NCBI GenBank assembly: GCA_030039575.1
Contig: JASHVH010000122.1
Span: forward strand, 1-19,519
Length of the DNA: 19,519 bases
Source: Acidimicrobiales bacterium
Lineage (GTDB): Bacteria; Actinomycetota; Acidimicrobiia; Acidimicrobiales; Palsa-688
Reading direction: 5' to 3'
The translations under genes and the position numbers were made by a program. Below the pieces are notes generated by a model. It was not told the DNA's origin. It made no database searches and saw only the letters and a list, made by a program, of their open reading frames with translations. Shown here piece after piece: positions 1 to 19,519 of the stretch. How positions within the stretch are numbered: the stretch's first letter is position 1; every line of letters starts with the position of its first letter.

Positions 1-1799
<1,799 letters not shown>

Positions 1800-1842
1800 G
1801 ATGTCGTCGCCTCCGTTGGCAATATCGAAACCGGGTGCTCGG

Positions 1843-1869: not shown

Positions 1870-1897
1870 AGATACCGTCCCCTGGGCGCTAACACAA
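1869..1897 (-). promoter_or_regulatory. Probable groES-groEL promoter
   Basis: On the minus strand a -35-like TTGTGT (1892-1897) is followed after 17 bp by a -10-like TATCTT (1869-1874). The -10 box abuts and shares one base with the CIRCE element, so bound HrcA would block initiation or clearance. The boxes are imperfect matches to the vegetative sigma consensus; the spacing and the operator position make the call plausible. Confidence 0.55.
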
Positions 1898-2468: not shown

Positions 2469-2477
2469 ACTGGGGCG

Positions 2478-2513
2478 CCGTGGTGCGAGGCGTGGTCCGC
2501 ACGGCCGGTTTTT
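2478..2513 (+). terminator. Possible whiB terminator
   Basis: Ten bases after the whiB stop an imperfect stem pairs CCGTGGTGCG (2478-2487) with CGCACGG (2498-2504). It is followed by CCGG and a run of five T (2509-2513). The stem has a bulge and the T-run is offset by four bases, so this is a weak intrinsic terminator candidate between convergent genes. Confidence 0.4.
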
Positions 2514-2522
2514 AGTTCGAGG

Positions 2523-2554
2523 CCGGCTCAGCCAGGGCGTACCGGCTCAGCCAG
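2523..2554. repeat. 13-bp direct repeat at the end of the S9 peptidase gene
   Basis: CCGGCTCAGCCAG occurs at 2523-2535 and again at 2542-2554. The left copy contains the stop codon of the peptidase gene and the right copy encodes its residues LAEP in another frame. This looks like a small duplication that set the present C-terminus. Confidence 0.5.
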
Positions 2555-4711: not shown

Positions 4712-4724
4712 ATCAACTGCGCGA

Positions 4725-4746
4725 TATGACCCGGAGCCGGGTCATA
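4725..4746. repeat. Perfect 22-bp palindrome over the tsaD stop codon
   Basis: TATGACCCGG (4725-4734), two bases, then CCGGGTCATA (4737-4746): ten perfect base pairs. On the minus-strand mRNA the tsaD TGA lies in its first arm. No T-run follows, so it is not a classical terminator. A second inverted repeat, CATATC/GATATG on either strand (4709-4714 and 4723-4728), overlaps it and includes the peptidase start codon, so the two hairpins exclude each other. Starting inside the tsaD stop (ATGA), a 10-codon ORF (4745 down to 4713) ends one base before the peptidase ATG. It may serve as coupling element, processing site or operator; the role is not known. Confidence 0.7.
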
Positions 4747-5779: not shown

Positions 5780-6300
5780 AGCGGTGCTTCGATCGCTTTC
5801 AGACGCGCTTGGACTTCAGGCGAGAGAAGTTCTCGCAGCCACATTATGAAAGCGTCTTCTTTCGTTTCGGGGTAATAGTTCCGGCGCACGCCGGCGACCA
5901 CAAACCCGAACTTCCGGTACAGGTTCTGGGCGCCCAGGTTGCCCATACGGACTTCGAGGGTCATGGCCGTGCAGTGCCGCCGGGTGCTTTCATGGGCCAA
6001 CTCGGCCAGGGGGTAGGAGCCCAAGCCCTGGCGGCGCAGCGTGGGAGCGATGGCAATGTTGGTTACGTGCGCCTCGTCCGCGGCGAACATCAGGCCGCCG
6101 TACCCCGCGACTTTCCCGTCGACCTTCAGCACGACGTAATAACGGTCGTCGCCTTGGGCCAGTTCGCTCGTGAACACGCCGAGAGACCACGGCTTGGGGT
6201 GGGCCCGGCGCTCGATCCGCATGACCGCGGGCAAGTGCCGCCGGCGCATCGGCTCGGTAACTATGTGCCGGCTGCCCACTTGGGACATACCTGCTCTCAT
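5776..6300 (-). CDS. rimI: GNAT N-acetyltransferase, RimI type
   Basis: Acetyl-CoA-dependent N-terminal protein acetyltransferase; RimI family members modify ribosomal protein S18 and sometimes other N-termini. Counting from ATG 6300 it has 174 residues. GNAT motif A is VTNIAIAPTLRRQGLGSYPL, with the acetyl-CoA loop RRQGLG at 89-94. The C-terminal part LEVRMGNLGAQNLYRKFGF (115-133) and NYYPETKEDAFIMWL is typical of RimI. The open frame runs much further upstream, but that part overlaps tsaB and is low-complexity. I chose ATG 6300 because it overlaps the tsaB TGA as ATGA. The ATG at 6286-6288 (170 residues), with GAGAG five bases upstream, is nearly as good. The gene is coupled by four-base overlaps on both sides. 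Confidence 0.93.
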   Translation of the reverse strand: MRAGMSQVGSRHIVTEPMRRRHLPAVMRIERRAHPKPWSLGVFTSELAQGDDRYYVVLKVDGKVAGYGGLMFAADEAHVTNIAIAPTLRRQGLGSYPLAELAHESTRRHCTAMTLEVRMGNLGAQNLYRKFGFVVAGVRRNYYPETKEDAFIMWLRELLSPEVQARLKAIEAPL

Positions 6301-7268
6301 GGAGCCAGCTTGGGCTCTCGGGGCGGCCAAGCGGCGGCGGGTGCCGTGGCCGCTGGAAGGTGGCCACCGCCGGGGCCAGTAGTAGAGCCTTGACCGGGCC
6401 CCCGGTCCGGGCCGTATCCAGGGCGGTGACGGGGCGAGGGACCGGGGCTCGTCCCGGGCTGCCCGCCGGCCCGGCCTCCGACCTCCTCCCAGCCGATCCG
6501 GACATCTGGCTGGCGTAAGTAAAGGGGTTCGGGGAGGGATCCCTCGCCGCCCGCCGCCGAGGCGAGGCGCGGCACCCCGAGCTCGGCCACCACCAGCGGC
6601 GAGGGCCACATTTCGGGTTCGTCCCCCACGTCGGCCCCGCTTGCCACCAGGTGCTCTTTGTAACGCCGGGCGCCGTCGCCGATGGCAAGCACCGGCCCGG
6701 CGGGCGCCGGGCCGATAAGTGTTGGGCCGGCAGGTGTTGGGCCGGCCGGAGTTGGGCCGGCCGGTGTTGGGCCGGCCGGTGTTGGGCCGGGAAGTACCGG
6801 GTCATCGAGACGCCGCAGTTCGGCGGCCAGCTCGTCCGGGCGGGCGACCGCCGGCGGCCGCAGTTCCTGTACCGAGGTGCCGTCCGCCCGGTACAACGCC
6901 CAATAGACCTCCCCGCGCCGGGCGTCGACCACCGGCGCCACCAGGCCGGTACGGCGCCGGTACGGGTGGGCCAGGGCCTCGAGGCTGTTCACACCGGCGG
7001 CCGGGAGCCCCCGTGCAGAAGCGATAGCCCTCGCCGTCGCCACGCCGACCCGGAGCCCCGTGAACAGGCCCGGCCCGACATCGACGGCCACTCCTGACAG
7101 GTCACCGACGGTCCACCCGGCCCGCCGGCACAGCTCGTCGACGGCCGGTATGAGGACCTCGGCATGGCGCTGGCCGGCCACCAGCACGAACGATGCCACC
7201 GGCCCCGCATCCGACCACAAGGCGCACCCCACGCAGGGAGTGGCCGTTTCGATGGCAAGTACCTTCAA
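6297..7268 (-). CDS. tsaB: t6A synthesis protein TsaB, enlarged
   Basis: Inactive paralogue and partner of TsaD in the TsaBDE complex for tRNA t6A37. The start is TTG at 7266-7268, overlapping the tsaE TGA as TTGA and encoding the first residue of the conserved KVLAIETATPCVGCAL strand; no other in-frame start lies nearby. Core motifs are DVGPGLFTGLRVGVATARAI (63-82), VNSLEALA (93-100), PVVDARRGEVYWALY (112-126) and the C-terminal EPLYLRQPDV (247-256). TsaB is usually about 220-230 residues; this one has 323. The excess comes from a Gly-Pro-Thr-Pro-Ala repeat (residues 161-190) inserted where the family is variable, and a Gly/Pro-rich tail of about 60 residues after YLRQPDV. Both are low-complexity and probably disordered. 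The function is secure; the role of the additions is unknown. Confidence 0.95.
   Translation of the reverse strand: MKVLAIETATPCVGCALWSDAGPVASFVLVAGQRHAEVLIPAVDELCRRAGWTVGDLSGVAVDVGPGLFTGLRVGVATARAIASARGLPAAGVNSLEALAHPYRRRTGLVAPVVDARRGEVYWALYRADGTSVQELRPPAVARPDELAAELRRLDDPVLPGPTPAGPTPAGPTPAGPTPAGPTLIGPAPAGPVLAIGDGARRYKEHLVASGADVGDEPEMWPSPLVVAELGVPRLASAAGGEGSLPEPLYLRQPDVRIGWEEVGGRAGGQPGTSPGPSPRHRPGYGPDRGPGQGSTTGPGGGHLPAATAPAAAWPPREPKLAP
6721..6790. repeat. 15-bp tandem repeat inside tsaB
   Basis: Four almost identical units of GTTGGGCCGGCCGGT start at 6721, 6736, 6751 and 6766, and a fifth keeps its first ten bases at 6781-6790. Degenerate copies precede the tract (6691-6720). The period of five codons preserves the tsaB frame and encodes GPTPA units. 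Units differ at only one or two bases, which suggests recent slippage expansion. Confidence 0.92.
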
Positions 7269-7966
7269 ACGACTCGTCCCGTGGGCATGTTCGACAGCTC
7301 TTGCACCCGGGCCTGCCAGCTCGGCCCGAGGGCGCGGAACACCAGGCGCCGCCCGCCGCCCGCGCCGGGGACGCCACCGGGCAGAGGGAAAGGGGCCCGC
7401 GCTTCTGGTGGGGTTGGCCCGCCAGCGGGCTCGTCCGATGGCAACGCGGCCGCAGCCCCGGCAGGCTCGTCGGCACCCGGGCCGTCGTAGCTGATGACCA
7501 CCTCGAGCCAATCCGGGGCGAGGGCAGGCGCCGCCATCTCACCCCACTCGACCACGGCCGCCGCCCCGTCCTCCAGTAGCTCCGGCAAGGCCAGGTCAAT
7601 GACCTCGTGGAGATGTTCCAGGCGCCACACGTCGGCGTGCAGGAGGTCCCACCCCGCCGCCGTCTTGTAGCTGTGGACCAGTACGAACGTCGGGCTCGTG
7701 ACCGGGTCACCCACGCCCAGCTCGGCGGCCATGCCCTGGGTCAAAGTGGTCTTGCCGGCGCCGAGCTCGCCACCGAGGAGCACCGTGTCGCCCGGGCGGA
7801 GGAGGCGCCCCAGTATGGCCCCGATGCGCTTCATTTCATCAGGGGAAGCGGCGTGGACGACCAGCGGGGCGGCGGGCCCCTGCTCGCCTGCGCCCGCCAC
7901 TTGGTCTGCAGTGGGAGGGCCAGCCCGCGTGGCGCCGGCCTCGCCCGAGTTCGTGACGTCGTGCAT
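7265..7966 (-). CDS. tsaE: t6A synthesis ATPase TsaE, enlarged
   Basis: P-loop ATPase that drives turnover of the TsaBD complex in t6A synthesis. ATG at 7964-7966 is preceded by GGGAG eight bases upstream and lies 20 bp after the udg stop; the longer open frame upstream overlaps udg and is rejected. The Walker A motif is GELGAGKT (66-73), followed by SPTFVLVHSY (91-100), HADVWRL (110-116) and VVEWGE (138-143), all typical for TsaE. The protein has 233 residues against the usual ~150. The excess lies in about 35 residues before VVHAASPDEM and in a Pro/Ala/Gly-rich stretch at about 162-205, placed between two conserved C-terminal strands. The stop overlaps the TTG of tsaB (TTGA). Confidence 0.95.
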   Translation of the reverse strand: MHDVTNSGEAGATRAGPPTADQVAGAGEQGPAAPLVVHAASPDEMKRIGAILGRLLRPGDTVLLGGELGAGKTTLTQGMAAELGVGDPVTSPTFVLVHSYKTAAGWDLLHADVWRLEHLHEVIDLALPELLEDGAAAVVEWGEMAAPALAPDWLEVVISYDGPGADEPAGAAAALPSDEPAGGPTPPEARAPFPLPGGVPGAGGGRRLVFRALGPSWQARVQELSNMPTGRVV

Positions 7967-7986
7967 TGGTTGAGCTCCCGCGTGAC

Positions 7987-8682
7987 CTAAACCTTGGGCA
8001 CCGCGCCCGGCCGGGAGGGCTCGTGGACCGGCGCCGTCTGAGCGCCCTGCGCCAGGGGCAGAGCCTGCGCCTGAGGTGGCCGGGGGGCGTGGAGGGCTTC
8101 CTTGGCCCGCACGAGGTCGGCGCGCATCTGGGCTACTACCTGGCCTCCACCCCGGAGGGCGGCGGAAGGGTGGAAGGTGGGCACGAGATAGCCGGAACGG
8201 TAGGGGAAGGTGCGACCGCGGAGGCGGCTGATCCCTTCTGTCGTCCCGAGCAGTAATTTCGTGGCGAAATTGCCGAGGGTGACGACCACCTTCGGGTCGA
8301 TCAGTTCGAGCTGCTTTTCCAGGTACGGCCAGCACGCCTCGATCTCGTCCGGCAGGGGGTCGCGGTTCCCGGGCGGGCGGCACTTGATCGTGTTGGCTAT
8401 GTAACAGTTCGCCCGGGTGAGGCCCATTTCTTCGAGCACCAGGCGGTCAAGGAGCTGGCCCGAACGGCCGACGAACGGCAGTCCCTGCCGGTCCTCCTGC
8501 TCGCCCGGGCCCTCGCCCACGAACATGAGGTCGGCGCTCGGGTTCCCCATCCCGAAAACGACGTTCGTCCTTGTGCTCGCCAGACGGCAACGCGTGCAGG
8601 TGGACGCTTCCTCGGCGACTCGGGACAGCTCGGCGACCCGGGACGCCTCTCGGCCTTCGCCCACAGGTCGAGGGTAGCTCAC
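7987..8682 (-). CDS. Uracil-DNA glycosylase, family 4 (Fe-S type)
   Basis: Removes uracil from DNA as the first step of base excision repair. The 231-residue protein has motif A GEGPGEQED (56-64), motif B HPS (171-173), and four cysteines C29, C32, C101 and C117 spaced as the [4Fe-4S] ligands of family 4. The N-terminal CTRCRLASTRTNVVFGMGNP and the NTIKCRPPGNRDPLPDEIEAC segment are typical. The last ~30 residues are a Pro/Ala/Gln-rich tail. GTG at 8680-8682 overlaps the serA TGA by four bases (GTGA), so the gene is part of the serA operon. It has no known functional tie to its neighbours. High GC raises the chance of cytosine deamination, but that does not explain the placement. Confidence 0.95.
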   Translation of the reverse strand: MSYPRPVGEGREASRVAELSRVAEEASTCTRCRLASTRTNVVFGMGNPSADLMFVGEGPGEQEDRQGLPFVGRSGQLLDRLVLEEMGLTRANCYIANTIKCRPPGNRDPLPDEIEACWPYLEKQLELIDPKVVVTLGNFATKLLLGTTEGISRLRGRTFPYRSGYLVPTFHPSAALRGGGQVVAQMRADLVRAKEALHAPRPPQAQALPLAQGAQTAPVHEPSRPGAVPKV

Positions 8683-10253
8683 ACGCCGGCGAGGGCTACG
8701 GCCTCGAGTATCCCCGGGGCGCCCGCCAGCTCGCTTAGCACTTGTTGGGGCACCGGCTCGTCCAGCGAGATGACCATGATGGCCGTCCGGCTGTCTGCCG
8801 AGCGCCCGAGGTGCAAGTCGACGATGTTGATGCCGGCCCGGGCCAGGGCCGAGCCGACAAGGGCGACCATGCCGACACGGTTGTCGTTGCGGACCACCAA
8901 CAGGTACGGGGCGAAGGGGAGCTCGATCTCGTGCTCGTCGAGCAGCACTATCCTCGGTTCGTCCCTGGCGAACAGCGTGCCACCGACGGCCCTGCCCCCG
9001 CCCCTGATACTGACCAGGTTGACGTACTCGTGCGAGGCGCTGGCCGTGGTCGTCCGCACTTCGAGGCCCCGTTCGATGGCCAGCTGAGGCGCGTTCACGT
9101 ACGAAACGGGCTCCTCCGTCGCCACCGTGAGCAGGCCCTTCTGCGCGGCCAGGGTGAGCAGGCGGGTGTCGTGGTCGGCCAGCGCGCCCTGGTAACCGAC
9201 CTCGAGAACGGCCGGCAGTTCACGGGCGAGGGCGGCGAAAAGCCGCCCGAGCCGTTCGGCCAGAGGCACGAAGGGCCGGACGACATCATCAGCTTCGGTG
9301 GCCGGCAGGTTGACGGCGAAGGGCACCAGGTCCCCGTCGAGGGCCAGCACCACCTGCTCCGCTATGGCGACGCCGGCCTTGTCCTGTGCCTCCCGGGTAC
9401 TGGCGCCGAGGTGGGGCGTGACCACGACCTGTTCGAGGTCCAGCAGGGCCGAGCTCCCCGGAGGCTCTGCGGCAAAGACATCAAGCGCGGCGCCGGCAAT
9501 CCAGCCAAGCGCTATGGCTTTGGCCAGAGCGGTCTCGTCGACGATCCCGCCCCGGGCGGCATTGACGAGCCGGAGCCCGGGCTTGGCGTTGGCCAACAGC
9601 TCCTCGCCGATGAGGCCGGCCGTCTCGGGGGTTTTCGGGATGTGGACGGTGAGGAAATCGGCCTGGCGGACAAGGTCGTCGAGGGTCACCAGTTCCACGC
9701 CCATGGCTCTGGCCCGCTCGGTCGCCAGGTAGGGGTCAAAGGCGATAAGCCGCATACCGAACGCCAGCGCCCGCTGGGCCACGAGGGCGCCCACCCGGCC
9801 CAGGCCGACGATCCCGAGGGTTTTGCCGTGGAGCTCGACGCCTTCCCAGCGCGAGCGTTCCCAGCGGCCGGCCTTCAGAGCGGCGTGTGCTTGGGGGATG
9901 TTGCGGGCCTGGGCCAACAGGAGGGCGATGGTGTGCTCGGCGGCGGAGAGGATGTTCGACTGCGGCGCGTTGACCACGATGACCCCACGCCGGGTGGCGG
10001 CGGAAATGTCGACGTTGTCGAGGCCGATACCGGCCCGGCCCACCACCTGCAAGTCGCGCCCAGCCGCCAGCAATTCGTCATCCACGTTGGTGGCCGACCG
10101 GATTATGAGCGCCGCCGCTCCCGGCACTGCCTGGAGGAGGTCGCCCTTGGACAAGCCCAACCTGACATCGACGTGATGGCCCGCCTCGGCGAGGAGGTCA
10201 AGGCCGGGCTGGGCGATTTCTTCTGTTACCAGGACGCGGGCCATGGCGGCCAT
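8679..10253 (-). CDS. serA: D-3-phosphoglycerate dehydrogenase SerA
   Basis: First enzyme of serine synthesis: oxidises 3-phosphoglycerate to 3-phosphohydroxypyruvate with NAD+. The 524 residues match the long actinobacterial form. The Rossmann loop is GLGRVG (150-155) and the catalytic residues are R234 in NAARGG, E263 in FAAEPP and H281 in TPHLGAST. An intervening allosteric domain (about 315-445) is followed by a C-terminal ACT domain (about 450-524, with NDNRVGMVALVGSALARAGI), which binds serine in related enzymes, so feedback inhibition is likely. Two ATGs, at 10253 and 10244, both fit; I kept the first. It is the first gene of the serA-udg-tsaE-tsaB-rimI-tsaD-peptidase unit and is divergent from serC, the next step of the pathway. 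Confidence 0.98.
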   Translation of the reverse strand: MAAMARVLVTEEIAQPGLDLLAEAGHHVDVRLGLSKGDLLQAVPGAAALIIRSATNVDDELLAAGRDLQVVGRAGIGLDNVDISAATRRGVIVVNAPQSNILSAAEHTIALLLAQARNIPQAHAALKAGRWERSRWEGVELHGKTLGIVGLGRVGALVAQRALAFGMRLIAFDPYLATERARAMGVELVTLDDLVRQADFLTVHIPKTPETAGLIGEELLANAKPGLRLVNAARGGIVDETALAKAIALGWIAGAALDVFAAEPPGSSALLDLEQVVVTPHLGASTREAQDKAGVAIAEQVVLALDGDLVPFAVNLPATEADDVVRPFVPLAERLGRLFAALARELPAVLEVGYQGALADHDTRLLTLAAQKGLLTVATEEPVSYVNAPQLAIERGLEVRTTTASASHEYVNLVSIRGGGRAVGGTLFARDEPRIVLLDEHEIELPFAPYLLVVRNDNRVGMVALVGSALARAGINIVDLHLGRSADSRTAIMVISLDEPVPQQVLSELAGAPGILEAVALAGV

Positions 10254-10362
10254 GGTCCCACGAACCGGTTGGGCAATCCAGTGACGTGAGGCCCGGTCGC
10301 GCCACCGGGTTGTGCACGGTTATGAAGGTGCAGCGCCGGGGCCCGTGGGGCAGACTGGCCCT
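10254..10362. promoter_or_regulatory. serA / serC divergent intergenic region with hairpin
   Basis: This 109-bp gap must hold both promoters. A perfect inverted repeat, CCCGGT (10292-10297) and ACCGGG (10304-10309) with a 6-bp spacer, lies near its centre and could be an operator for joint control. I see no consensus -35/-10 pair for either gene. Confidence 0.3.
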
Positions 10363-11493
10363 ATGCCGGACACTGAGCTACCCGCAATAACCATCCCCAG
10401 CCATATGTTGCCCGCCGACGGCAGGTTCGGGAGCGGCCCGTCCAAGGTACGGACCATCGACTCCCTGGTGGCGGCGGCCAAGGGCCCGCTGGGGACGAGC
10501 CACCGGCAAGCGCCCGTCAAGTCGTTGGTAGGAAGGCTCCGCTCCGGCCTCGGCGAGTTGTTCAGGCTCCCCGATGGCTACGAGGTGGCCCTCGGCAACG
10601 GGGGCACGACAGCCTTCTGGGACATCGCCACGTTCTGCCTCATAGGGCAGCAAAGCCAGCACCTCTCTTTTGGCGAGTTCTCGTCCAAGTTCGCCGCCGC
10701 CGCCAAGGGCGCCCCGTGGCTGTCGGCGCCCGACGTCATCGAAAGCCCGGTAGGGTCCCACCCGTCGGCAGAGGGGCGTCCGGGGGTTGACCTTTACGCC
10801 CTTACCCACAACGAGACGTCCACGGGTGTGATGATGGAGATCCGCCGGCCTGACAGCGCCGACCCTGGTGCCCTGGTGGCGGTGGACGCCACCTCCGCAG
10901 CGGCGGGGTTACGGGTCGATGCTTCCCAGTTCGACGTCTACTACTTCGCCCCTCAGAAGGGCTTCGCCTCGGATGGTGGGTTGTGGCTCGCCCTTCTGTC
11001 CCCTGCCGCCGTCGCCAGGGTGGAGAGCATAAAAGCCTCCGGGCGGTTCGTCCCGGCGTTCCTGGACCTCTCGATCGCCATAGAGAACAGCCGGCTGGAC
11101 CAGACGTACAACACCCCCGCCATCGCCACGTTGCTGCTGGCCGTCGAGCAACTTGAGTGGATATTGGGCAACGGGGGAATGGAGTTCTCGGCCGGGCGGT
11201 GCGACCGCTCCGCCGAGATCCTGTACGGCTGGGCGGAGTCGACCGCCTACGCCTCTCCTTTCGTGGCCAAGCCCGATGAACGCTCACACGTGGTGGCCAC
11301 CGTCGATTTCGAGGAACGGGTCAATGCGGCTCACGTGGCCAACGTGCTGCGGGCGAACCGGATCGTGGACACGGAGCCTTACCGCAAGCTCGGCCGGAAC
11401 CAATTGCGCATAGCGATGTTCCCGGCCATCGAACCAGACGACATAAGCGCGCTTACCGGGTGCATCGACTACGTCGTCAGCGCGCTGTCGTAA
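10363..11493 (+). CDS. serC: Phosphoserine aminotransferase SerC, actinobacterial type
   Basis: PLP enzyme converting 3-phosphohydroxypyruvate and glutamate to O-phosphoserine and 2-oxoglutarate. The 376 residues have the length of mycobacterial SerC and close resemblance along it: DGRFGSGPSKVR (19-30), LFGTSHRQAPVK-like PLGTSHRQAPVK (42-53), LGNGGTTAFWD (77-87), AHNETSTGV-like THNETSTGV (148-156), and the PLP lysine K199 in YYFAPQKGFASDGG. The C-terminus has RKLGRNQLRIAMFPAIEPDD. The frame opens earlier, at GTG 10312, but ATG 10363 lines up with the family start and is preferred, although no clear Shine-Dalgarno precedes it. It is divergent from serA, so the first two serine steps flank one regulatory region. 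SerB is not in the window. Confidence 0.97.
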   Translation: MPDTELPAITIPSHMLPADGRFGSGPSKVRTIDSLVAAAKGPLGTSHRQAPVKSLVGRLRSGLGELFRLPDGYEVALGNGGTTAFWDIATFCLIGQQSQHLSFGEFSSKFAAAAKGAPWLSAPDVIESPVGSHPSAEGRPGVDLYALTHNETSTGVMMEIRRPDSADPGALVAVDATSAAAGLRVDASQFDVYYFAPQKGFASDGGLWLALLSPAAVARVESIKASGRFVPAFLDLSIAIENSRLDQTYNTPAIATLLLAVEQLEWILGNGGMEFSAGRCDRSAEILYGWAESTAYASPFVAKPDERSHVVATVDFEERVNAAHVANVLRANRIVDTEPYRKLGRNQLRIAMFPAIEPDDISALTGCIDYVVSALS

Positions 11494-11519
11494 AAAGCTG
11501 AGGAGCTAGGTGCTGATCG

Positions 11520-11549
11520 GTCAAACCGGGTCGCAGGGGCCCGTTTGAC
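11520..11549. terminator. Hairpin downstream of serC
   Basis: GTCAAACCGGG (11520-11530) pairs with CCCGTTTGAC (11540-11549) apart from one bulged C, around a 9-nt loop, 26 bp after the serC stop. It lacks a T-run, so it would be a tail-less or Rho-assisted terminator; its symmetry would also let it act on the opposite transcript. Confidence 0.5.
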
Positions 11550-11614
11550 GGTTCCCTTGGCCCCAGGCGTATAAAAATCCCATGATGCCTCGGCTGGTGG
11601 AGCCTCGTCTTGCC

Positions 11615-11655
11615 CATTTTTCGACGGCGGGAGCGGGCAAAGTAGGACTTTTAGC
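11615..11655. repeat. ~40-bp direct repeat, copy 1
   Basis: Begins CATTTTTCGACGGC and ends GGACTTTTAGC with a divergent middle of 16 bp. Copy 2 at 11750-11789 has the same ends with one mismatch and nearly the same length, 135 bp downstream. The copy overlaps an imperfect long hairpin (TTTTCG...CGGGA...CAAAG with CTTTG TCCCGG CGAAAA, 11617-11671). Confidence 0.6.
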
Positions 11656-11749
11656 TTTGTCCCGGCGAAAAGTGCGCACGGCGCCCGCTGCCGTGCCCCG
11701 CTCAGGATAAAACTGCGCGAGGCGGCTTTCCCGGACTGGGAGCTGTTCG

Positions 11750-11789
11750 CATTTTTCTACGGCACCGCCGTCCGGCGCGGACTTTTAGC
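11750..11789. repeat. ~40-bp direct repeat, copy 2
   Basis: Begins CATTTTTCTACGGC and ends GGACTTTTAGC, matching copy 1 at 11615-11655 at both ends. The middle differs and itself forms a GC-rich stem (CGCCGTCCGGCG region, 11766-11777). Confidence 0.6.
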
Positions 11790-11846
11790 CCCAGAAAACC
11801 GAGTAAAACCCCGTAGGGCGGGGGGATGAGGTGACAGTCGGGCGCG

Positions 11847-13217
11847 TTAGGTGTATATGCGCGGCAAGCGCGGCGACAGCGCGCACGTGACCTCGTAGGC
11901 GATAGTGCCGAGGCGGCCGGCCCATTCCCACGCCGATATTTCCTCGTCACCCTGGCGGCCGATAAACACGACCTCGTCGCCCGCCTGCACACCGCCCGCG
12001 GGCCCGCAGTCGACGAGGACCTGGTCCATCGTGACCGTCCCGGCCAAAGGACGGCGCCGGCCGCCCACCAGGACCTGGCCGCCCACTTCGGACAGCCGGC
12101 GAGGCACGCCGTCGGCATAGCCAAGCGGGACTGTGGCCACGACGGACGCCTCGGGCAGGCGGTAGCGCAGCCCGTACGAGAGCGACTCGCCTGCGGCTAC
12201 CTCCTTCACGTAAGAGACCCTGGCCTTCAGCGACAAGACCGGGGTCAGCGCTTGCACGCTCGGCTCGCTCTCCATCGAAGCGGCGGGCGCCAGCCCGTAA
12301 ACGGCGATCCCCGGCCTTACCATCTGGTAGCGGGCACCCGGGTGAGCCAGGGCGCCGGCCGAGTTGGCGGCGTGAAGGAGCGGCGGCCGAATGCCTCGAC
12401 TGGCCAGGCCGGCCACCACCATTTCGAAGCGGTGCAGCTGCTCGCCGGTGAAGGGCCGGGACGGCTCGTCTGCCACCGCTAAGTGCGTGAACAGGCCCTC
12501 AAGGCAGAGCTGCGGCTGGGCGGCAACGGCCCGGGCCAGCTCGACGGCCCCCTCCGGGCTGGCTCCCACGCGGTGCATGCCGGTGTCGACCTTTATGTGG
12601 AGCGCAAATGGTTTGCGCCGCTCGGGCCCGTTCGAGTTGATCGCCTCCAACAGGGAGCCCAAGCCGGCCTCTGTGTAAATGGTGGGCGTGAGGTTGTCGT
12701 CGACGACCAATTGCATGGCCTCGCCGGGAGGCTCGGAAAGGACCAGGACGGGCACCTCGATGCCGGCCGCTCGTAGCTGGCGCCCCTCCTCGGCCAGAGC
12801 CACCCCGAGGTGCGTGGCGCCGCCGGCCACCGCCGCCGATGCCACCTGGACGGCCCCGTGGCCGTAACCGTCGGCCTTCACTACGGCGCAGACGGCCGCC
12901 GGCGCTACTACTTTGCGGATCCGGGCCACGTTGGCACTGACGGCGCCGAGGTCCACTTCAACCCAGGCCGGCCGGAGCCAGCCCGTCACCCGAACTGAGG
13001 TGTTGTGGCCCTCGCGGCCGCGGTCGTCAGCCCCTCCGTCGGGACCGCCGCGGTTGAGGTCGCTTTTGTTGAGAGAGCCGTTTTGGTTGAGAGTGCTCGC
13101 CCCACTGCCGCCGGACGCCCCATTTCGGCCGGCGGCATAAGCCTGGCCCGCCGTCCGGGCCACCTCTCCAGTGGGGCGGCCGACCGGCCCCTGGTACACC
13201 GGGCCGGGCCGGCTCAC
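11847..13217 (-). CDS. alr: Alanine racemase Alr with low-complexity N-terminal extension
   Basis: PLP enzyme that makes D-alanine for peptidoglycan. The racemase core starts at RPAWVEVDLGAVSANVARI. Counting from GTG 13217, the PLP lysine is K114 in VVKADGYGHG and the second catalytic base is Y348 in GESLSYGLRY. KVDTGMHRVG, HAANSAGAL, RPGIAVYGL and PLGYADGVPR are also typical. I chose GTG at 13215-13217 because GAGAGG lies six bases upstream and the GTG overlaps the TGA of the repeat ORF (GTGA). This gives about 80 extra residues, rich in Gly, Asn and Arg, before the core. GTG 13238 (within the repeats) and GTG 12989 (just before the core, no Shine-Dalgarno) are alternatives. It is the last gene of the glmM-glmS-acpS-nnrD-alr unit and convergent with serC. 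Confidence 0.93.
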   Translation of the reverse strand: MSRPGPVYQGPVGRPTGEVARTAGQAYAAGRNGASGGSGASTLNQNGSLNKSDLNRGGPDGGADDRGREGHNTSVRVTGWLRPAWVEVDLGAVSANVARIRKVVAPAAVCAVVKADGYGHGAVQVASAAVAGGATHLGVALAEEGRQLRAAGIEVPVLVLSEPPGEAMQLVVDDNLTPTIYTEAGLGSLLEAINSNGPERRKPFALHIKVDTGMHRVGASPEGAVELARAVAAQPQLCLEGLFTHLAVADEPSRPFTGEQLHRFEMVVAGLASRGIRPPLLHAANSAGALAHPGARYQMVRPGIAVYGLAPAASMESEPSVQALTPVLSLKARVSYVKEVAAGESLSYGLRYRLPEASVVATVPLGYADGVPRRLSEVGGQVLVGGRRRPLAGTVTMDQVLVDCGPAGGVQAGDEVVFIGRQGDEEISAWEWAGRLGTIAYEVTCALSPRLPRIYT

Positions 13218-13336
13218 CGGCACCCTCTCATTTGGCACCCTCTCATTTGGCGGCCTCTATTTTGGCGCCCTCTCTGTTGGCGCCCTCTCTTTTGGCGCCG
13301 TCTCATTTGGCGCCCTCTCATTTGACGCCCTCTCAT
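13214..13336 (-). CDS. Repeat-built 40-codon mini-ORF bridging nnrD and alr
   Basis: ATG at 13334-13336 overlaps the nnrD TGA (ATGA). The frame stays open for 40 codons, and its TGA at 13214-13216 overlaps the best alr start (GTGA). It consists only of eight 5-codon units: MRGRQ, MRGRQ, MRRRQ, KRGRQ, QRGRQ, NRGRQ, MRGCQ, MRGCR. The peptide would be extremely basic. Each DNA unit also holds GAGAGG or a close variant, a good ribosome binding sequence, and five of the eight units begin with ATG. It may be a translated bridge that keeps ribosomes moving from nnrD to alr, rather than a gene for a useful peptide. That it is translated is inference. Confidence 0.35.
   Translation of the reverse strand: MRGRQMRGRQMRRRQKRGRQQRGRQNRGRQMRGCQMRGCR
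13217..13336. repeat. 15-bp tandem repeat in the nnrD-alr gap, 8 units
   Basis: Exactly eight 15-bp units with minus-strand consensus ATGAGAGGGCGCCAA. Most units differ from the consensus at one to three positions. The tract fills the whole gap between the nnrD stop and the alr start. It is unrelated in sequence to the 15-bp tract in tsaB, though it shares the period. Confidence 0.95.
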
Positions 13337-14811
13337 CGGCCGAGGTTCCTTGACAACCAGCCGGCCACCAGGTCGGGGAGGTCACCGGCCACGAGGCCCT
13401 CGGCGTACCCGGCCAGGGCGGCCCGGCCGTGGACGTGAGCGGCCAGCGCCGCCGCCTCGAACGCCGGCACGCCCCGGGCGATGAAGGCGCCGATCACGCC
13501 GGACAGGACGTCACCTGTACCGGCGGTGGCCAGGCGGGAGTCGCCGGATGCACTGATGAGCACGCTCCCGGCGTTACTGCCCTGAGCGTCCGAGCCTCCG
13601 GGACCGCCAGAGCCGGCCGGTCCAGCGCCGCCGGCTGAGCCATCGGGCGAGGCCACGACGGTTGTCGACCCTTTCAGCAGGACGATGGCGCCACTACGGG
13701 CGGCCGCCTCCCGAGCGGCAGCAATGTGGTCCGGGCCGGGAGGCTTCCCGGCCAGCCGGGTGAACTCGCCGACGTGGGGGGTGATCACGGTGGGCTGAGA
13801 TCGCTTGGCCACGATCACTCCCAGTGCTTCCAGCGACCCGATGGCGTTCAGCCCGTCGGCATCGATGACCACCGGCACCGGGGCGGCCGCGACGAGGGCG
13901 CCGACCTCGCCGCCGGGCAAGCCGGGCTCCCCCCCCGCTCCAGCCGTGTGCCCGAGCCCGGGGCCGACGACCAGCGCCTTCACCCGGTCCAGGCCGTTGA
14001 GCACCTGGCTGTGCCACCCCGATGCGGGCACCGGCGCGTGCACGATCTCGCTCGGCGGCAGCACGGTGGGCTCGACGCCCGGCATGGAAAGGAGCACGTA
14101 GCCGGCACCGGCCCGGAGGGCGGCCCGGCTGACGAACCACGGGGCACCGGTCATCCCGGGCGACCCGGCCACGACGTGGAGGGCGGTTAGCCACTTGTGC
14201 GCCTCGCGAGGCCGGCGCGGGAGGAGGCGCACGACGTCGCGGTCTTCGACCAGCCAGCACTTGGCGATGGCGTCGACCAGCTGACCCAGCCCTATATCCG
14301 CCAGTTCCACGTCACCGGCCAGGGTCGGGCCGGCACCGAGCAGTAGGCCCGGCTTCCAGGACGCAAAGGTGACGGTAACGACGGCGGCCATCGCCCCGCC
14401 TCTGTCGAGCACTTCCCCGGTGAGGCCGGACAGGCCGGAAGGGATGTCGACCGCCAGCACCGGGGCCCGGCCCGGGTCGGGAGGGGAATAGGGCCGTTCC
14501 AAGCCCGTCCCGTAGGCGGCGTCGATCACCAGTTCGGAGGGCGGCAGGGCCGAGCCTCCGGCCAGAGCGGCCGCCTCCAGGACGTTCACCCGCGCCCCGT
14601 TGGCGGACAGCAGTTTCGCCGCCAGCCGGCCGTCGGCCCCGTTGTTGCCTTTGCCGGCCACCACGGTGACGTTCTTGGCGTAGGTGCCGCCGAGCAGGCG
14701 GGCCGCCCGGCGGGCCACCGCGGCTCCGGCCCGGCCCACGAGCACGTCCACCGGCTCGGGAGCCTGCCGGTCGACCCCGGCCATCTCCGCGGGCGTGAGT
14801 ACGGGGATCAC
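13333..14811 (-). CDS. nnrD: Bifunctional NAD(P)H-hydrate epimerase / dehydratase
   Basis: Repairs damaged NADHX and NADPHX: the N-terminal domain epimerises the hydrate and the C-terminal domain dehydrates it with ATP or ADP. The 492 residues cover both domains. The epimerase part (about 1-200) has GKGNNGADG (53-61) and VDIPSGLSG (121-129). The dehydratase part (about 205-490) has VVAGSPGMTGAP (213-224), VVGPGLG (281-287), DADGLNAI (318-325), TPHVGEF (344-350) and the nucleotide loop AGTGDVLSG (430-438). A Gly/Ser-rich insertion at about 389-416 separates two strands of the dehydratase domain. The usual LMExAG of the epimerase N-terminus is LVGRAG here. GTG at 14809-14811 overlaps the acpS TGA (GTGA). 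Mycobacteria have this gene in the same neighbourhood. Confidence 0.95.
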   Translation of the reverse strand: MIPVLTPAEMAGVDRQAPEPVDVLVGRAGAAVARRAARLLGGTYAKNVTVVAGKGNNGADGRLAAKLLSANGARVNVLEAAALAGGSALPPSELVIDAAYGTGLERPYSPPDPGRAPVLAVDIPSGLSGLTGEVLDRGGAMAAVVTVTFASWKPGLLLGAGPTLAGDVELADIGLGQLVDAIAKCWLVEDRDVVRLLPRRPREAHKWLTALHVVAGSPGMTGAPWFVSRAALRAGAGYVLLSMPGVEPTVLPPSEIVHAPVPASGWHSQVLNGLDRVKALVVGPGLGHTAGAGGEPGLPGGEVGALVAAAPVPVVIDADGLNAIGSLEALGVIVAKRSQPTVITPHVGEFTRLAGKPPGPDHIAAAREAAARSGAIVLLKGSTTVVASPDGSAGGAGPAGSGGPGGSDAQGSNAGSVLISASGDSRLATAGTGDVLSGVIGAFIARGVPAFEAAALAAHVHGRAALAGYAEGLVAGDLPDLVAGWLSRNLGR

Positions 14812-15209
14812 GCCAGGGCCAGGACCACGGCCGCAGCCGTGTTCGACGTGTGGGTCAGGGAGACCGACCAGGAGCGGACATGCCGGGCGGAAGCCAACTC
14901 GGCCGCCCGCCCGGAGAGAACGAGGTGGGGAGCCCCGCTCTCTTCTCTTTGCACTTCCACCTCACCGAAGGCGAAGGCACCGAGACCCACACCGAGAGCC
15001 TTCATCACCGCTTCCTTGGCGGCGAAGCGGGCGGCCAGCGTTGGCGTCGGATCCGCGAACGTGCCGGCGTAGGTGCGCTCGCCCGCGGTGAAGAGGCGCT
15101 CGGCTATTTTTGGCCGGCGGCCCAGGACTTTGGCGAACCGGTCCACGTCAACCAGGTCGATCCCGAGGCCGACGAGCGTAGCGCCGGCGCTGCCCGCTCC
15201 CGCGCTAAT
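14808..15209 (-). CDS. acpS: Holo-[acyl-carrier-protein] synthase AcpS, probable ATT start
   Basis: Transfers 4'-phosphopantetheine from CoA to apo-ACP, activating fatty acid synthesis. Counting from ATT 15209 (133 residues), the family's first strand GLGIDLVDVDRF is at 14-25 with Mg2+ ligand D18. The second ligand E66 is in RFAAKEAVMKALG, LFTAGERTYA is at 39-48 and WSVSLTHT at 114-121. The first ATG/GTG/TTG in frame is GTG 15146, which would remove D18 and the strand, and no canonical start exists back to the next in-frame stop. ATT at 15207-15209 is preceded by GGAGG six bases upstream and shares one base with the glmS TAG. I therefore take ATT as the start. A sequencing error that destroyed an ATG is the main alternative. 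The stop overlaps the nnrD GTG. Confidence 0.9.
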   Translation of the reverse strand: MSAGAGSAGATLVGLGIDLVDVDRFAKVLGRRPKIAERLFTAGERTYAGTFADPTPTLAARFAAKEAVMKALGVGLGAFAFGEVEVQREESGAPHLVLSGRAAELASARHVRSWSVSLTHTSNTAAAVVLALA

Positions 15210-18200
15210 GGGCGGCCTCCGGAACGTCAGAGGGAGCGGACCAGTGCCGGGCGAGGACGACCACCGGCTCTGTCAACAGTTCGATCATGGGCACCTGCCC
15301 GAGCCGCTCGTCGGCGAACAGCGGCTCGCTCTCGGTGACCGCATCGACGAGCGCGCGGTAGCGCCCCTGGTACGCCTGGAGGACATCTTTTGCCGTCCCC
15401 GCGTCGAGGAACGGGAGGAACCGGGTGTGCAGCAGGGTAATCCCGGTGACCTGGCCGTCTTTCACCTCCGGGACCATCACGCCCGTCCTGCCATCATGTA
15501 GGCCACTGAACACCGTGACCTCCCTCTTGTCGGCTGTCCGGCGCTTGGTGCCCCGTAGGCTGTTGTCCGTCGCCGTCCGGGACGAAATGGAGCGGGAGAT
15601 CCCGCCCCGGTCGACCACCGTGATGGTCGCCCCGTCCAGGCTGCCGGGGGAGGCAGGCACTGTTGGCATGGTGATGTGGTAGCGGGTATAGCCGAGGACC
15701 TCTTCAACGGCTGGCCCAAGGGCGGCCAGGGTACGGAGGGCACGATAGCCAAGTACCTCGACTGAAGCTCCCGCGCCGAGCGTTTCGGCCACGAGCCTGG
15801 CGGTCAGTAGGGCCTCTTCGCTCCTGGAGGTGCCCACCGTTACGGTCTTGGCCTGGTGCTTGATGGCGTCGACCGGCCGCGTCAACTCGTCGATGGCAGC
15901 CCCCAGGGCGATAACGAGGTCGCCCGCAATAGCGCTCGGGGTGCCGACTTTGCCCATCTCGGCTTCATAACCGTCCACGGGCAGCGCGCGGGTGGCGTAC
16001 CGGAGGTGCGAGGTGAGCCGGGCCGCCGTTGAGGCGTTGAGATGGCCGTCGTAGGCCCCGGAGCGAAGACCGGCTAAGGCGGGCGCACTGACGTGGTCGA
16101 GCGCCGGCGCCAGCTGGTCGAGGTCGGGACCACCGCCGGCCTCCCGGGTGGCACCTTCGAGCACCGCCCGGGCCTCTCGGAAGGGCAGGGCCTGGGCGTC
16201 GATGGCGAGGGCCGCCTCGTACCCGAACAAATGGCCCGTCATGGCGGCCAGGACAAAGGCCAGCTCGGGGAGGCAGGCGGGGACCGTCAGGACGTCGACG
16301 CCGGACTTGAGCAGTTCTTCGGTGCCCTCCGCCGCGATGACGACGGGGGCGGCTTTATGAGCCCTGAATATGTCGATTTCCTTGGCGATATCCCTGGCGT
16401 TGGGCCCGCTCACGCCGGCGGCGCACACGATGACCAACGGCTCGGCGGAGAGGTCAATGTGCTTTTTGTCCTCTATAGGGTCGAGCGCTATCGCTTTGTA
16501 GCACAGCTCCGAAAGCTTGATCCTTATCTCGGCTGCCGCGATATGGTCCGGGCCGCTGCCGACCACCGCCCACGAACGGCGAGGCGGCGCCGTCGCCGAG
16601 GCCACCCGGGCGATTTCTGCCCGGTTGGAAAGGACTTTTTCCATCAGCGAGGGAAGTTCTCTCAGTGCGCTCAAGATCTCGTCCGCCCGGGCGGGGTTGG
16701 CGGTGCCGGCTGCCTCCGCCAGCCCAAGGGCCAGCAAATGCCCGGCGGCGACCTGCGAATAAAAAGCCTTGGTCGAGGCGACGCTCATCTCGACGTCGCG
16801 CCCATCCGAGGTATAGAGGACACCGTGGGCTTTTTGGACGAGGTCGCTGTTCCGGCGGTTGACGATGGCGATTACCTGGGCGCCCCGTGCCCGCAAAAGG
16901 TCGACGGTACGGTTGGTATCGGTCGTGGTCCCTGACTGGCTGATGGCGATGACGAGTGCCCCGGACATGTCGTCGGGCAGCCCGACGCCGGCCGGGCCCC
17001 AGCCCGACACCTCTGTGGCCGGCAACGCCACCACGCTCATGTGGGGGAGCGCTCTCGCCATCGCGGCCGCCACCGCCTGCCCTGCTACTGCCGCCGTGCC
17101 CTGGCCCATCACGATGGTGCTGTGGGTACGGCCGGCCGAGAGGGCTTGGCGGACCGACGCGGGTATGACGTCCTCCCCCAAGTAGGCGGAAAGGCGGCCT
17201 TTTTCTCCCGTCCCGATTTTCCCGCGCAGGGTTTTGCGCACCGACGATGGCGATTCCGAGATCTCCTTTAGGAAGAAATGCCTGAACCCGTGGCGGTCCA
17301 CATCCCGGGTCGTTATCTCGGCCTCGATAACCTCGGAGGGGGAGACGGGGAAGTCCGTGCCGTCGTAACGGCGGCGCGTAAGCCCCTCCAGGGTGCCCGC
17401 CCCGATGAGCGAGCACGTGACGACTTGTCCGCCCCTTTCGCCGTCCATGCGCAAATAGCGGCTCGTCTCTTCGACCAGGCCGTACGGCTCGCTGGCGACG
17501 ACGAACGCGTCCTCCGCGAGGCCGATGTTCAGGCTTTGCCCGCTGCCTCGGAGGGCCAGCTGAAGCTCGCCGGGCGCCCGGGCTGAATTGGCGGCGATCC
17601 CGACCGACCCGTCGAAACGCCCGACCACCCTCCGGAACGCCTCCTCGACCGGCGCACCGCCGGCCAGGTAACGAGAGAAAAGGGTGGGGACGAGCTTGGC
17701 GTCGGTGGTGACCTCGACGGCCACGGCCACGCCTTCGTCGACGACCAGTTCGGAGTAATTGTCGATATCGCCGTTGAGCGCCCCGACCACGTAAGGGCGG
17801 GGCGAGACCAGCGGGGCGGCCCCGTCAGTGGCCTCGTCAGAGTTGAGAGGGTGGGCGTTGGCCTCGGATATGAGGCCGACGCTGGCCCAGCGCGTGTGGG
17901 CGATGACTGTGGCCCTCACGTCCGGGGAAGCCAGCGCCCGGGCCAGGAGCGGGTCGCCGGCCAGTGCCGAACGCAGGGCGGCGACGTTGTCGCCTAGCTC
18001 GCCAATTTCAGCCGCCGCTTTGTACACAAACGAGAGGCAGCCTTCTTCGGCCCGCACCGCATGAGAGGTGAAGAGGGCGTCGGCCCTTTGCCCAAGCAGC
18101 TCCGTCAGTTCCCTGGACTCCAGGTCGAGGCCGTGCCCCGTCAGCATGAGGTGCAGGCCGGCCGAGTCCCGGCCCCGGACCTCGAGGCGGTCCAGCGACC

Positions 18201-18738
18201 GAAGGGCCACGTGGGCCCCCCAGAGGACACTTAGGGCAGGGGCGGGGGGAGGAGTTCCGGCGCTGCCGAAGCCAAGCGATGAAGCCAACCCGGAAACGCT
18301 CCTGAACGCCTCGAGGCGGTCGCGGCTGAGGGCCCAGGTGACGTCGCGGAACCTAACCAGGGCGGCGTTCAGCTCCTCCAGTTCTGAGGTCCCCATTTGG
18401 AACTGGCCGGCGTCGAGGGTGGCTTCGAGACTGGCCGCCAGCGCTTCCATTTCTGCCGTCCCCCGTTCGAGGGCTTCGACCGCCGGTGGGCTTCCGAGAA
18501 GGCATGTGAGGCCGGGGACGCCCCGAAGCGAAGCGTCGAGCGCGCTCAAGGCGGCATTGGCAGTTCGAAGCGCCGCCAGCTGAGACCGGGGGTCGGCGGT
18601 CAGACCATCGCGCCCCGTGGCGCGGTGCCCTACTTGTGCCAGTTCTTGGGACGCCCGGCCGAAGGTGGCAGCCACCTCCCCAGGGCCCGGAGGGGGCCGG
18701 ACTGAGGGCCTCGCCAACACGGCGACAATGCCGCACAT
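15205..18738 (-). CDS. glmS: Giant GlmS-like glutamine:fructose-6-phosphate amidotransferase
   Basis: Expected to make glucosamine-6-phosphate from fructose-6-phosphate and glutamine, the entry to UDP-GlcNAc. The 1177 residues compare with about 600-625 normally. The start is certain: MCGIVAV exposes nucleophile C2. The glutaminase motifs follow after a long insertion: RGRDSAG (188-194), HTRWAS (281-286, R283), NGDIDNYSEL (322-331, N322, G323) and TTDAKL (344-349, D346). HFFLKEISESPSSVRKTLRG (487-506) leads into SIS domain 1, with ISQSGTTTDT (599-608) and VASTKAF (653-659). SIS domain 2 has K741 and E744 in KLSE and H760 in DKKH, the same spacing as E. coli K485, E488 and H504. K964 in AKTVTV matches the ring-opening lysine at the normal C-terminus. 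Extra parts are about 11-175, about 50 residues before HTRW, about 845-945, and about 970-1177. glmM is 49 bp upstream; no Shine-Dalgarno is visible. Confidence 0.9.
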   Translation of the reverse strand: MCGIVAVLARPSVRPPPGPGEVAATFGRASQELAQVGHRATGRDGLTADPRSQLAALRTANAALSALDASLRGVPGLTCLLGSPPAVEALERGTAEMEALAASLEATLDAGQFQMGTSELEELNAALVRFRDVTWALSRDRLEAFRSVSGLASSLGFGSAGTPPPAPALSVLWGAHVALRSLDRLEVRGRDSAGLHLMLTGHGLDLESRELTELLGQRADALFTSHAVRAEEGCLSFVYKAAAEIGELGDNVAALRSALAGDPLLARALASPDVRATVIAHTRWASVGLISEANAHPLNSDEATDGAAPLVSPRPYVVGALNGDIDNYSELVVDEGVAVAVEVTTDAKLVPTLFSRYLAGGAPVEEAFRRVVGRFDGSVGIAANSARAPGELQLALRGSGQSLNIGLAEDAFVVASEPYGLVEETSRYLRMDGERGGQVVTCSLIGAGTLEGLTRRRYDGTDFPVSPSEVIEAEITTRDVDRHGFRHFFLKEISESPSSVRKTLRGKIGTGEKGRLSAYLGEDVIPASVRQALSAGRTHSTIVMGQGTAAVAGQAVAAAMARALPHMSVVALPATEVSGWGPAGVGLPDDMSGALVIAISQSGTTTDTNRTVDLLRARGAQVIAIVNRRNSDLVQKAHGVLYTSDGRDVEMSVASTKAFYSQVAAGHLLALGLAEAAGTANPARADEILSALRELPSLMEKVLSNRAEIARVASATAPPRRSWAVVGSGPDHIAAAEIRIKLSELCYKAIALDPIEDKKHIDLSAEPLVIVCAAGVSGPNARDIAKEIDIFRAHKAAPVVIAAEGTEELLKSGVDVLTVPACLPELAFVLAAMTGHLFGYEAALAIDAQALPFREARAVLEGATREAGGGPDLDQLAPALDHVSAPALAGLRSGAYDGHLNASTAARLTSHLRYATRALPVDGYEAEMGKVGTPSAIAGDLVIALGAAIDELTRPVDAIKHQAKTVTVGTSRSEEALLTARLVAETLGAGASVEVLGYRALRTLAALGPAVEEVLGYTRYHITMPTVPASPGSLDGATITVVDRGGISRSISSRTATDNSLRGTKRRTADKREVTVFSGLHDGRTGVMVPEVKDGQVTGITLLHTRFLPFLDAGTAKDVLQAYQGRYRALVDAVTESEPLFADERLGQVPMIELLTEPVVVLARHWSAPSDVPEAAH

Positions 18739-18787
18739 GGGGAAAAGGCTAGCGGCGCCGGCCTTCCCGGGTAAGGCTTGCGGGGGC

Positions 18788-19519
18788 CTACAGAGGGGTA
18801 GGGCTACCCAAAGCGGCTTGCAGCGCGTCCACGATCTGCGCCACCGCCGCCTCCGCCTCGCCCTCGGTCGGGGCCTCGACCATCACCCGCACCAGAGGCT
18901 CTGTCCCACTCGGGCGCAGCAACACGCGTCCCCTGTCACCGAGGGCCTCTTGGAGACGGCGCACCTCGGCCCAGACGGCGTCTGCGCCGGCCAGGCCGTC
19001 CCGGTCGGCGACGGCGACGCTGCGAAGCACCTGTGGGCACCGCTGCAACGCGGCACCGGCCAGCTCGGCCAGTCGCCCCCCGGTCCTCACCAGCAAGTCG
19101 GCCAGCAACAAGCCGGATAGGACGCCGTCCCCGGTGGACGCAAGTGACCGGAAGATTATGTGCCCCGACTGCTCGCCCCCGAGCGACCAGTTGTGGGCGT
19201 CGAGGGCCTCCAGGACGTAGCGGTCGCCGACGCCAACGGTGTGGACCTTGACCCCCGCCGAGGCCATCGCCTGGTGAAAACCGAGGTTCGTCATGACCGT
19301 CACCACCACGGTCTCGCTGACCAGCAGCTTTCGCGCCGACAGGTCGGCGGCAAACAGTGCGAGCAGGCGGTCGCCGTCCACCACGTTGCCACCGGAGTCG
19401 ACGGCGATGACCCGGTCGGCGTCGCCGTCGAAGGCCAAGCCGAGGTCCGCCCCCTCAGAGACGACGGCCTGCGCCAGCCGGCGCGGGTCGGTCGAGCCGC
19501 ACTTGTCGTTGATGTTGGT
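18788..19519 (-). CDS. glmM: Phosphoglucosamine mutase GlmM, N-terminus outside window
   Basis: Interconverts glucosamine-6-phosphate and glucosamine-1-phosphate, the step after GlmS. The frame is open from the right edge to TAG at 18788-18790, giving 243 residues, a little over half of the usual ~445. The first visible residues are TNINDKCGSTDP, followed by the metal-binding DGDADR, the sugar-binding GGEQSGHI and the phosphate-binding RPSGTEPLVRV near the C-terminus. The active-site phosphoserine loop is outside the window. An internal TTG at 19436-19438 is not a real start, since the frame and homology continue past it. It is the first visible gene of the glmM-glmS-acpS-nnrD-alr unit. Confidence 0.97.
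   Translation of the reverse strand, partial: TNINDKCGSTDPRRLAQAVVSEGADLGLAFDGDADRVIAVDSGGNVVDGDRLLALFAADLSARKLLVSETVVVTVMTNLGFHQAMASAGVKVHTVGVGDRYVLEALDAHNWSLGGEQSGHIIFRSLASTGDGVLSGLLLADLLVRTGGRLAELAGAALQRCPQVLRSVAVADRDGLAGADAVWAEVRRLQEALGDRGRVLLRPSGTEPLVRVMVEAPTEGEAEAAVAQIVDALQAALGSPTPL

Follow-up and report, generated by a model that had tools for sequence, protein, structure and literature searches.

The stretch of DNA analysed here, 19,519 nucleotides from an Acidimicrobiales bacterium (GenBank assembly GCA_030039575.1, contig JASHVH010000122.1, positions 1 to 19,519; hereafter the window), encodes a GlmS of 1177 residues. GlmS catalyses the entry step into cell-wall amino-sugar synthesis and is a classic example of ammonia channelling, its C-terminal tail (C-tail) forming part of the channel. 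Comparison of sequences and gene neighbourhoods leads us to conclude, with a probability of about 0.8, that the long form is an enlarged glucosamine-6-phosphate synthase that took over the job of ordinary GlmS. It very likely catalyses the GlmS reaction, because it keeps the catalytic residues, occurs almost exclusively where ordinary GlmS does not, occupies the operon slot of ordinary glmS, and lies in neighbourhoods that favour replacement in place.

Anatomy of the long protein

The gene is a single 1177-codon frame on the minus strand, with an ATG start and without an internal stop, and the opposite strand contains stops; the one open frame proposed from the sequence alone was thereby borne out. 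The protein begins MCGIVAV, and the frame opens 49 bases past the stop of glmM. An assembly or frame artefact was ruled out, because an identical layout was found in many genomes. The gene and the parts of its product are as follows.

15205..18738, minus strand: long-form glmS, 1177 amino acids (open reading frame; Escherichia coli GlmS as best solved relative; alignments)
18733..18735, minus strand: codon of Cys2, counterpart of the GlmS N-terminal nucleophile (alignments)
18223..18705, minus strand: insert 1, residues ~12-172, lying after the first strand and before the first helix of the glutaminase domain
17329..18222, minus strand: glutaminase (class II GATase) core, residues ~173-470, with R283, W284, N322, G323 and D346
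17923..18132, minus strand: expansion 2 within the glutaminase domain, residues ~203-272, which includes YKAAAEIGELGDN (alignments)
16669..17301, minus strand: first SIS domain, residues ~480-690 (S600, Q601, S602, T605, S655, T656, K657)
16189..16668, minus strand: second SIS domain, residues ~691-850 (K741, E744, H760; GlmS alignment)
15889..16188, minus strand: insert 3, residues 851-950, separating the second SIS domain from the C-tail (alignments)
15832..15870, minus strand: C-tail motif DAIKHQAKTVTVG (residues 957-969) with K964, internal, counterpart of E. coli DQPRNLAKSVTVE
15208..15831, minus strand: C-terminal part, residues 970-1177 (208 residues), following the tail and conserved in the family

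The reference for these assignments was an alignment with E. coli GlmS (from NC_000913) and four short GlmS of Actinomycetota, against which the extra sequence lies mainly at residues 12-172, 203-272, 851-950 and 970-1177. The sequence-only reading had counted four extra segments, and the alignment with E. coli GlmS recovered the main ones. Pfam detects the glutaminase and only one SIS domain in long GlmS, the second SIS domain being placed by alignment to GlmS.

A wider comparison set 42 short proteins beside 108 long rows, which represent 107 distinct proteins because L009 duplicates the window. The long proteins were chosen for being longer than 1000 amino acids, beginning with [MVL]CGI and carrying KTVTVG in the tail. 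Their median length is 1141 amino acids. Mean identity to the window is 56-63% across the core, 52% in the C-terminal part (194 amino acids), 45% in insert 3 (about 100 amino acids) and 33% in insert 1 (median 139 amino acids). Among 17 sequences, 42 positions of the C-terminal part never vary, which suggests that it is under selection. A search with this part gave 678 matches among 8000 scored candidates; the 120 matches listed were 187-364 amino acids long and named GlmS, hypothetical, or unnamed, and are taken for fragments, so that no other architecture with this part emerged among the matches listed.

No significant relative of the extra parts was found in Pfam or the PDB, and they were ruled out as known domains, the weak matches to ribose-phosphate pyrophosphokinase (E-values 0.7-1.1) being regarded as chance. 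They were also ruled out as duplicates of the core or of one another (hhalign probabilities of at most 2.84%).

Conservation of the catalytic residues

Each catalytic residue of E. coli GlmS has a counterpart in the window. In the glutaminase domain these are C2 (Cys1 in E. coli), R283 (Arg73), N322 (Asn98), G323 (Gly99) and D346 (Asp123), and in the synthase part K741 (Lys485), E744 (Glu488), H760 (His504) and K964 (Lys603). All nine, as predicted from the sequence alone, fall in the expected alignment columns, and the predicted spacing of the Lys-Glu-His trio, 3 and 16, is that of E. coli GlmS. The nine are identical in 20/20 rows of a first alignment (A1), and in all 107 distinct long proteins, where the conservation of C2 and K964 is conditioned by the use of the start and tail motifs for selection. 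In a further alignment (A5) of 82 rows, hand-picked with no filter on length, start or tail, R283, W284, N322, G323, D346, K741, E744, H760 and K964 never vary and C2 is nearly invariant (90% or more), the shortfall probably reflecting late starts of some database entries. By E. coli numbers, every long row keeps C1, R26, R73, W74, N98, G99 and D123 in the glutaminase part, along with S347, Q348, S349, T352, S401, T402, K403, E481, K485, E488, H504, A602 and K603. Hence the long form has the N-terminal cysteine with Arg73, Asn98, Gly99 and Asp123 that mark GlmS and, by alignment, two SIS domains with Lys485, Glu488 and His504 and the tail Lys603.

The best solved relatives of the long protein are E. 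coli GlmS chains (profile E-value 1.5e-42), and its nearest NCBIfam models are the GlmS subfamily and equivalog models, the former scoring 228.5 bits against a cut-off of 381. The NagB-II model NF046059 gives 53.6 bits against a cut-off of 430, and the presence of a glutaminase domain also places the protein outside NagB-II. In a protein search 7937 of 8000 scored candidates passed an E-value of 0.001; the 120 matches listed were 845-1223 amino acids long, with named organisms from Acidimicrobiales or Actinomycetota. Among the best 80 of 535 confirmed loci the titles are mostly Acidimicrobiia or Actinomycetota, and a few odd labels of metagenome-assembled genomes (Acidobacteria, Planctomycetia, Thermoanaerobacterales and Bifidobacterium breve) are taken for submitters' mislabels. 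Long GlmS is a coherent family, mostly of Acidimicrobiia-type Actinomycetota. A viral origin was ruled out, there being no pattern match in viral contigs.

Near-exclusive distribution of long and ordinary GlmS

The distribution of the two forms was compared in 197 genomes of the window's class, which the names of near relatives indicate to be Acidimicrobiia. Completeness is 90% or more and contamination 5% or less in 194 of them, the long form being detected by a profile of its C-terminal part (A3) and ordinary GlmS by the GlmS model at its curated cut-off. The long form was present in 77 genomes and ordinary GlmS in 112, and no genome had both, against 43.8 expected by chance. The computed probability of zero overlap, 5e-46, exaggerates the case, because genomes of one class are not independent by descent. 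Across 296 genomes of the phylum the long form occurred in 27, of which 20 lie inside the class and seven outside it, and only one of the seven (G256) has the short form too. The idea of a lineage-specific class holds in that the form belongs mostly to one class, and is qualified by these seven genomes that carry it elsewhere.

The window's own genome, which is only 68% complete, has no ordinary glmS over the GlmS cut-off. Two further SIS loci there encode other proteins: a 353-amino-acid protein beside nagA, which we take to be NagB-II-like, and a 533-amino-acid frame beside a kinase, which is presumably FrlB-like, both labels following the neighbouring genes. A hidden ordinary glmS was accordingly rejected as far as this incomplete genome reaches. 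Eight genomes were reached by way of named loci, and only Aquihabitans sp. G128 among them has a GlmS-model match over the cut-off.

In a two-contig genome (G035) the long glmS lies in two frames of 812 and 431 amino acids (L208:9918-12185 and downstream), probably through a sequencing error, or possibly as a split gene.

Operon slot and probable replacement in place

Ordinary glmS lies in the order glmM-glmS-acpS-nnrD-alr, which is also the usual place of the long form. In the window, acpS, the NAD(P)H-hydrate repair gene and alr are on the same strand as long glmS and 3' of it.

18788..19519, minus strand: glmM, 3' part, directly upstream of long glmS (TIGR01455, 277.2 bits on the partial gene)
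14808..15146, minus strand: acpS, directly downstream of long glmS
13333..14811, minus strand: nnrD/E-like NAD(P)H-hydrate repair gene
11847..13238, minus strand: alr, alanine racemase (TIGR00492)

In 10/10 short loci (L110-L119) the short gene is flanked by glmM and nnrD-alr, all on the same strand, acpS being undetected in L114, L115 and L117-L119. A long gene fills the slot in L103, L107 and L108 and, as far as its contig extends, in the partial L106. Among 80 named loci, glmM is upstream in 68 of the 71 with upstream room, and acpS, nnrD or alr is downstream in 70 of the 72 with downstream room.

Two neighbourhoods favour replacement in place. In G263, a genome of the same phylum and another class, the long gene sits in the glmM-nnrD-alr slot, and its GlmM, NnrD, Alr, UDG and RimI are nearest to those of the short-form G249 of the same family (5/6 genes, 20 loci compared). 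In G383, likewise from outside the window's class, NnrD and Alr are nearest to those of the same-family short-form G311 (2/2 genes, 20 loci compared). A quick tree of the SIS core, with 21 long, 22 short and two other SIS proteins, placed the long forms of G263, G374, G339 and G256 within a long clade, which a branch with support 99 sets apart; the two other SIS proteins have very long branches and an unsure placement, and the tree warns of long branches meeting. We read G263 as a case in which the long gene was transferred to the short gene's place, because its neighbours match short-form relatives while its GlmS nests in the long clade, and G383 is probably a second such case.

Need for the product

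All long-form class genomes but two, G000 and G151, have a MurA that exceeds its cut-off (75/77). GlmU-model matches at an E-value of 0.001 occurred in 77/77, with 24 over the cut-off; in 13 (G077, G105, G131, G159, G169, G178, G180, G184, G188, G214, G215, G219 and G225) the best is weak, with an E-value above 1e-40, and may represent other nucleotidyltransferases. NagB was over its cut-off in two of the 77 and matched at 0.001 in 30. In seven genomes (G077, G078, G102, G151, G178, G188 and G206, of which G151 also lacks MurA over the cut-off) the long form is the sole GlmS-model match and there is no nagB match, and it is therefore the only candidate source of glucosamine-6-phosphate by these searches.

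Best GlmU E-values above 1e-40 were also seen in G093 and G140; the genomes without a good GlmU match are reported as 94-98% complete, and loss, strong divergence or missing contigs could each account for them. Well-matching GlmU (E-value below 1e-40) in the window's order spans only about positions 2-344 of 452 (reaching 362 at most), with the C-terminal end missing, and stops ahead of the acetyltransferase active-site region. The frames are often 357-410 amino acids long, one example being L210:3459-4721 (G000:C254), and in L210 and L211 the gene after GlmU resembles that of a ribose-phosphate pyrophosphokinase. This shortening raises the idea that the extra parts of long GlmS add a second step of UDP-GlcNAc synthesis, such as acetylation beyond the shortened GlmU. 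However, the same shortened GlmU is common to long- and short-GlmS genomes of that order, most long-GlmS genomes of the other orders of the class have a full-length GlmU, matched to about positions 431-451 (those of G048 and G134 are cut off by contig ends, and G131 has no good match), and the extra parts lack a significant Pfam match, making such a step extremely unlikely. Long GlmS and shortened GlmU were likewise ruled out as a pair by the short-GlmS genomes of the order and by the genomes of other orders.

Observations that weigh against a simple takeover

Several observations pull against the reading of the long form as a synthase that took over from ordinary GlmS. Firstly, scoring in the genome searches was limited to the top candidates per genome (up to 6 for the GlmS model and up to 16 for A3), and 8 of the 197 class genomes have neither form over threshold, two of them with short-form fragments. 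Secondly, Aquihabitans sp. G128, complete by its title, and the draft G256, with 5% contamination, hold both forms. In G128 the long form occupies the slot, whereas the short GlmS, full in length (705 bits), is encoded elsewhere, outside the glmM operon; this short GlmS (L200, L204) is divergent and clusters on a long branch with that of G028 in the quick tree. Replacement of ordinary glmS has support in the 77 long-form genomes of the class, none of which has a match over the GlmS cut-off. The proposal of an essential replacement, under its own refuting condition of a second, normal glmS, is weakened for G128 and G256 by the co-residence of both forms. Thirdly, the long gene is outside the slot in L102, L104 and L105 (G374, G256 and G339), the TsaD of G263 is not nearest to that of G249, which is cut at the end of the fetched stretch, the long gene of G383 is partial and was left out of the tree, and a very long branch (6.73, in a tree with long-branch warnings) separates long from short forms in the SIS core. 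Fourthly, the GlmS equivalog model TIGR01135 gives 207.7 bits against a cut-off of 418.05. Rather than ending at the C-tail (TVE), as a GlmS does, the chain continues for 208 residues. Scoring below the equivalog cut-off and running on past the tail, the long form is therefore called a GlmS variant that works like GlmS, and not a member of the equivalog.

Fifthly, by E. coli numbers, Y25V, Y28R, T76S, H77V/I, C300Q, S303A, E351T, G505-P506 to I-D, N600H, L601Q and E608G, at positions in or near the active sites, are fixed or nearly fixed in the long forms, as is P598I. Residue 608 is Gly in 108/108 long rows and Glu in 42/42 short rows; S303A is found in 5/42 short forms too. The long form could therefore be a glutamine amidotransferase of the GlmS fold that acts on another sugar or makes another product, with some other protein supplying the ordinary reaction: S303A, E351T, C300Q and the G505-P506 change would fit this, as would the deep split of the tree, the co-resident ordinary GlmS of G128 and G256, and the out-of-slot copies in G374, G339 and G256. 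Against it stand the usual position between glmM and acpS, where ordinary glmS belongs, the neighbourhoods of G263 and G383, the seven genomes in which the long form is the sole GlmS-model match and nagB has none, and the MurA count, which together leave another substrate improbable.

Proposed mechanism and channel gate

As an enlarged GlmS, the protein would be expected to work as follows, with the roles of single residues taken from GlmS and assumed to carry over. Cys2 of the N-terminal glutaminase domain would free ammonia from glutamine, held by R283, N322, G323 and D346. The ammonia would then travel internally past the W284 gate and reach the sugar site formed by the two SIS domains. There H760, K964 and E744 would open, hold and isomerise fructose-6-phosphate to yield glucosamine-6-phosphate, to be taken on by GlmM of the same operon. 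The chain continues beyond the C-tail lysine into the 208-residue C-terminal part, and this part, together with the gate changes (Tyr28 to Arg and Leu601 to Gln), may rebuild or regulate the coupling of the two sites. Such a role is proposed for the C-terminal part because the C-tail of known GlmS belongs to the ammonia channel between the sites. Insert 1 may serve assembly.

In PMC7948480 the C-tail and gate tryptophan are described as parts of the ammonia channel, and Tyr35 and Leu675 of human GFAT2 are reported to contact that tryptophan in simulations; by our own matching of numbers through the alignment, these two correspond to E. coli Tyr28 and Leu601. The same paper gives a similar activity for C-terminally tagged human GFAT2, and on that account the idea that the enzyme needs a free tail was abandoned.

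The altered gate neighbours could instead mark an enzyme with loosened coupling, mainly using free ammonia or leaking as a glutaminase, yet the long forms compared preserve the catalytic residues of the glutaminase as well as the gate tryptophan. Relaxed selection would not be expected to leave these intact, and such an enzyme is very unlikely. A more ambitious form of the takeover reading would make the long proteins a distinct class of GlmS, in which the C-tail, terminal in all 42 short forms compared, would be an internal hinge between the catalytic core and a new C-terminal domain, with a rebuilt gate (Arg190 and Gln962), coupling or feedback unlike that of GlmS and GFAT, and spread by gene swapping in place; this is put forward tentatively, as somewhat less probable than even odds.

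Other features of the window

A 15-base tandem repeat of about 8 copies (13219-13336) fills the gap that separates alr from the NAD(P)H-hydrate repair gene, and tsaB contains a 15-base tandem repeat that encodes a PTPAG repeat (6709-6790). Within the stretch from alr to tsaD, serC (10312-11493) and serA (8679-10253) are adjacent on opposite strands. No Rfam match was found in the window.

Comparison with known systems

No description of a long or replaced GlmS was found in the literature by searches aimed at one, judged from titles and the openings of abstracts among the entries listed (15 of 218 in one case), and the main text of PMC5962788 mentions neither glucosamine nor fructose, SIS domain or sugar isomerase. 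Since the GlmS equivalog model misses the long form in all 77 class genomes that carry it, a pathway annotation resting on that cut-off alone would call glmS missing in them.

The known proteins nearest to the long form each share a different part of its character. The glutaminase-less SIS proteins of the window's genome share the SIS fold, and differ in having no glutaminase domain and only 353 and 533 amino acids, while the short GlmS of other Actinomycetota share its operon slot. Human GFAT1 and GFAT2, with chains of about 687 amino acids, are likewise GlmS enlarged by an extra loop, suggested to be regulatory in PMC7948480 and PMC7000685. The GFAT insertion is much smaller than those of the long form, and GFAT has no C-terminal part after the tail. 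The two kinds of insertion are also placed differently. E. coli GlmS (TIGR01135 type, 609 amino acids) has the same order of glutaminase, SIS, SIS and C-tail and the same catalytic residues, whereas the long form, with 27% identity in the alignment, is 568 residues longer, mainly in four places, has its C-tail internal rather than terminal, carries fixed differences in pocket and gate, and scores below the curated cut-off. A widespread natural form that combines the catalytic residues of GlmS with 568 extra residues, one block of them on the tail, would allow a direct test of which channel parts are needed.

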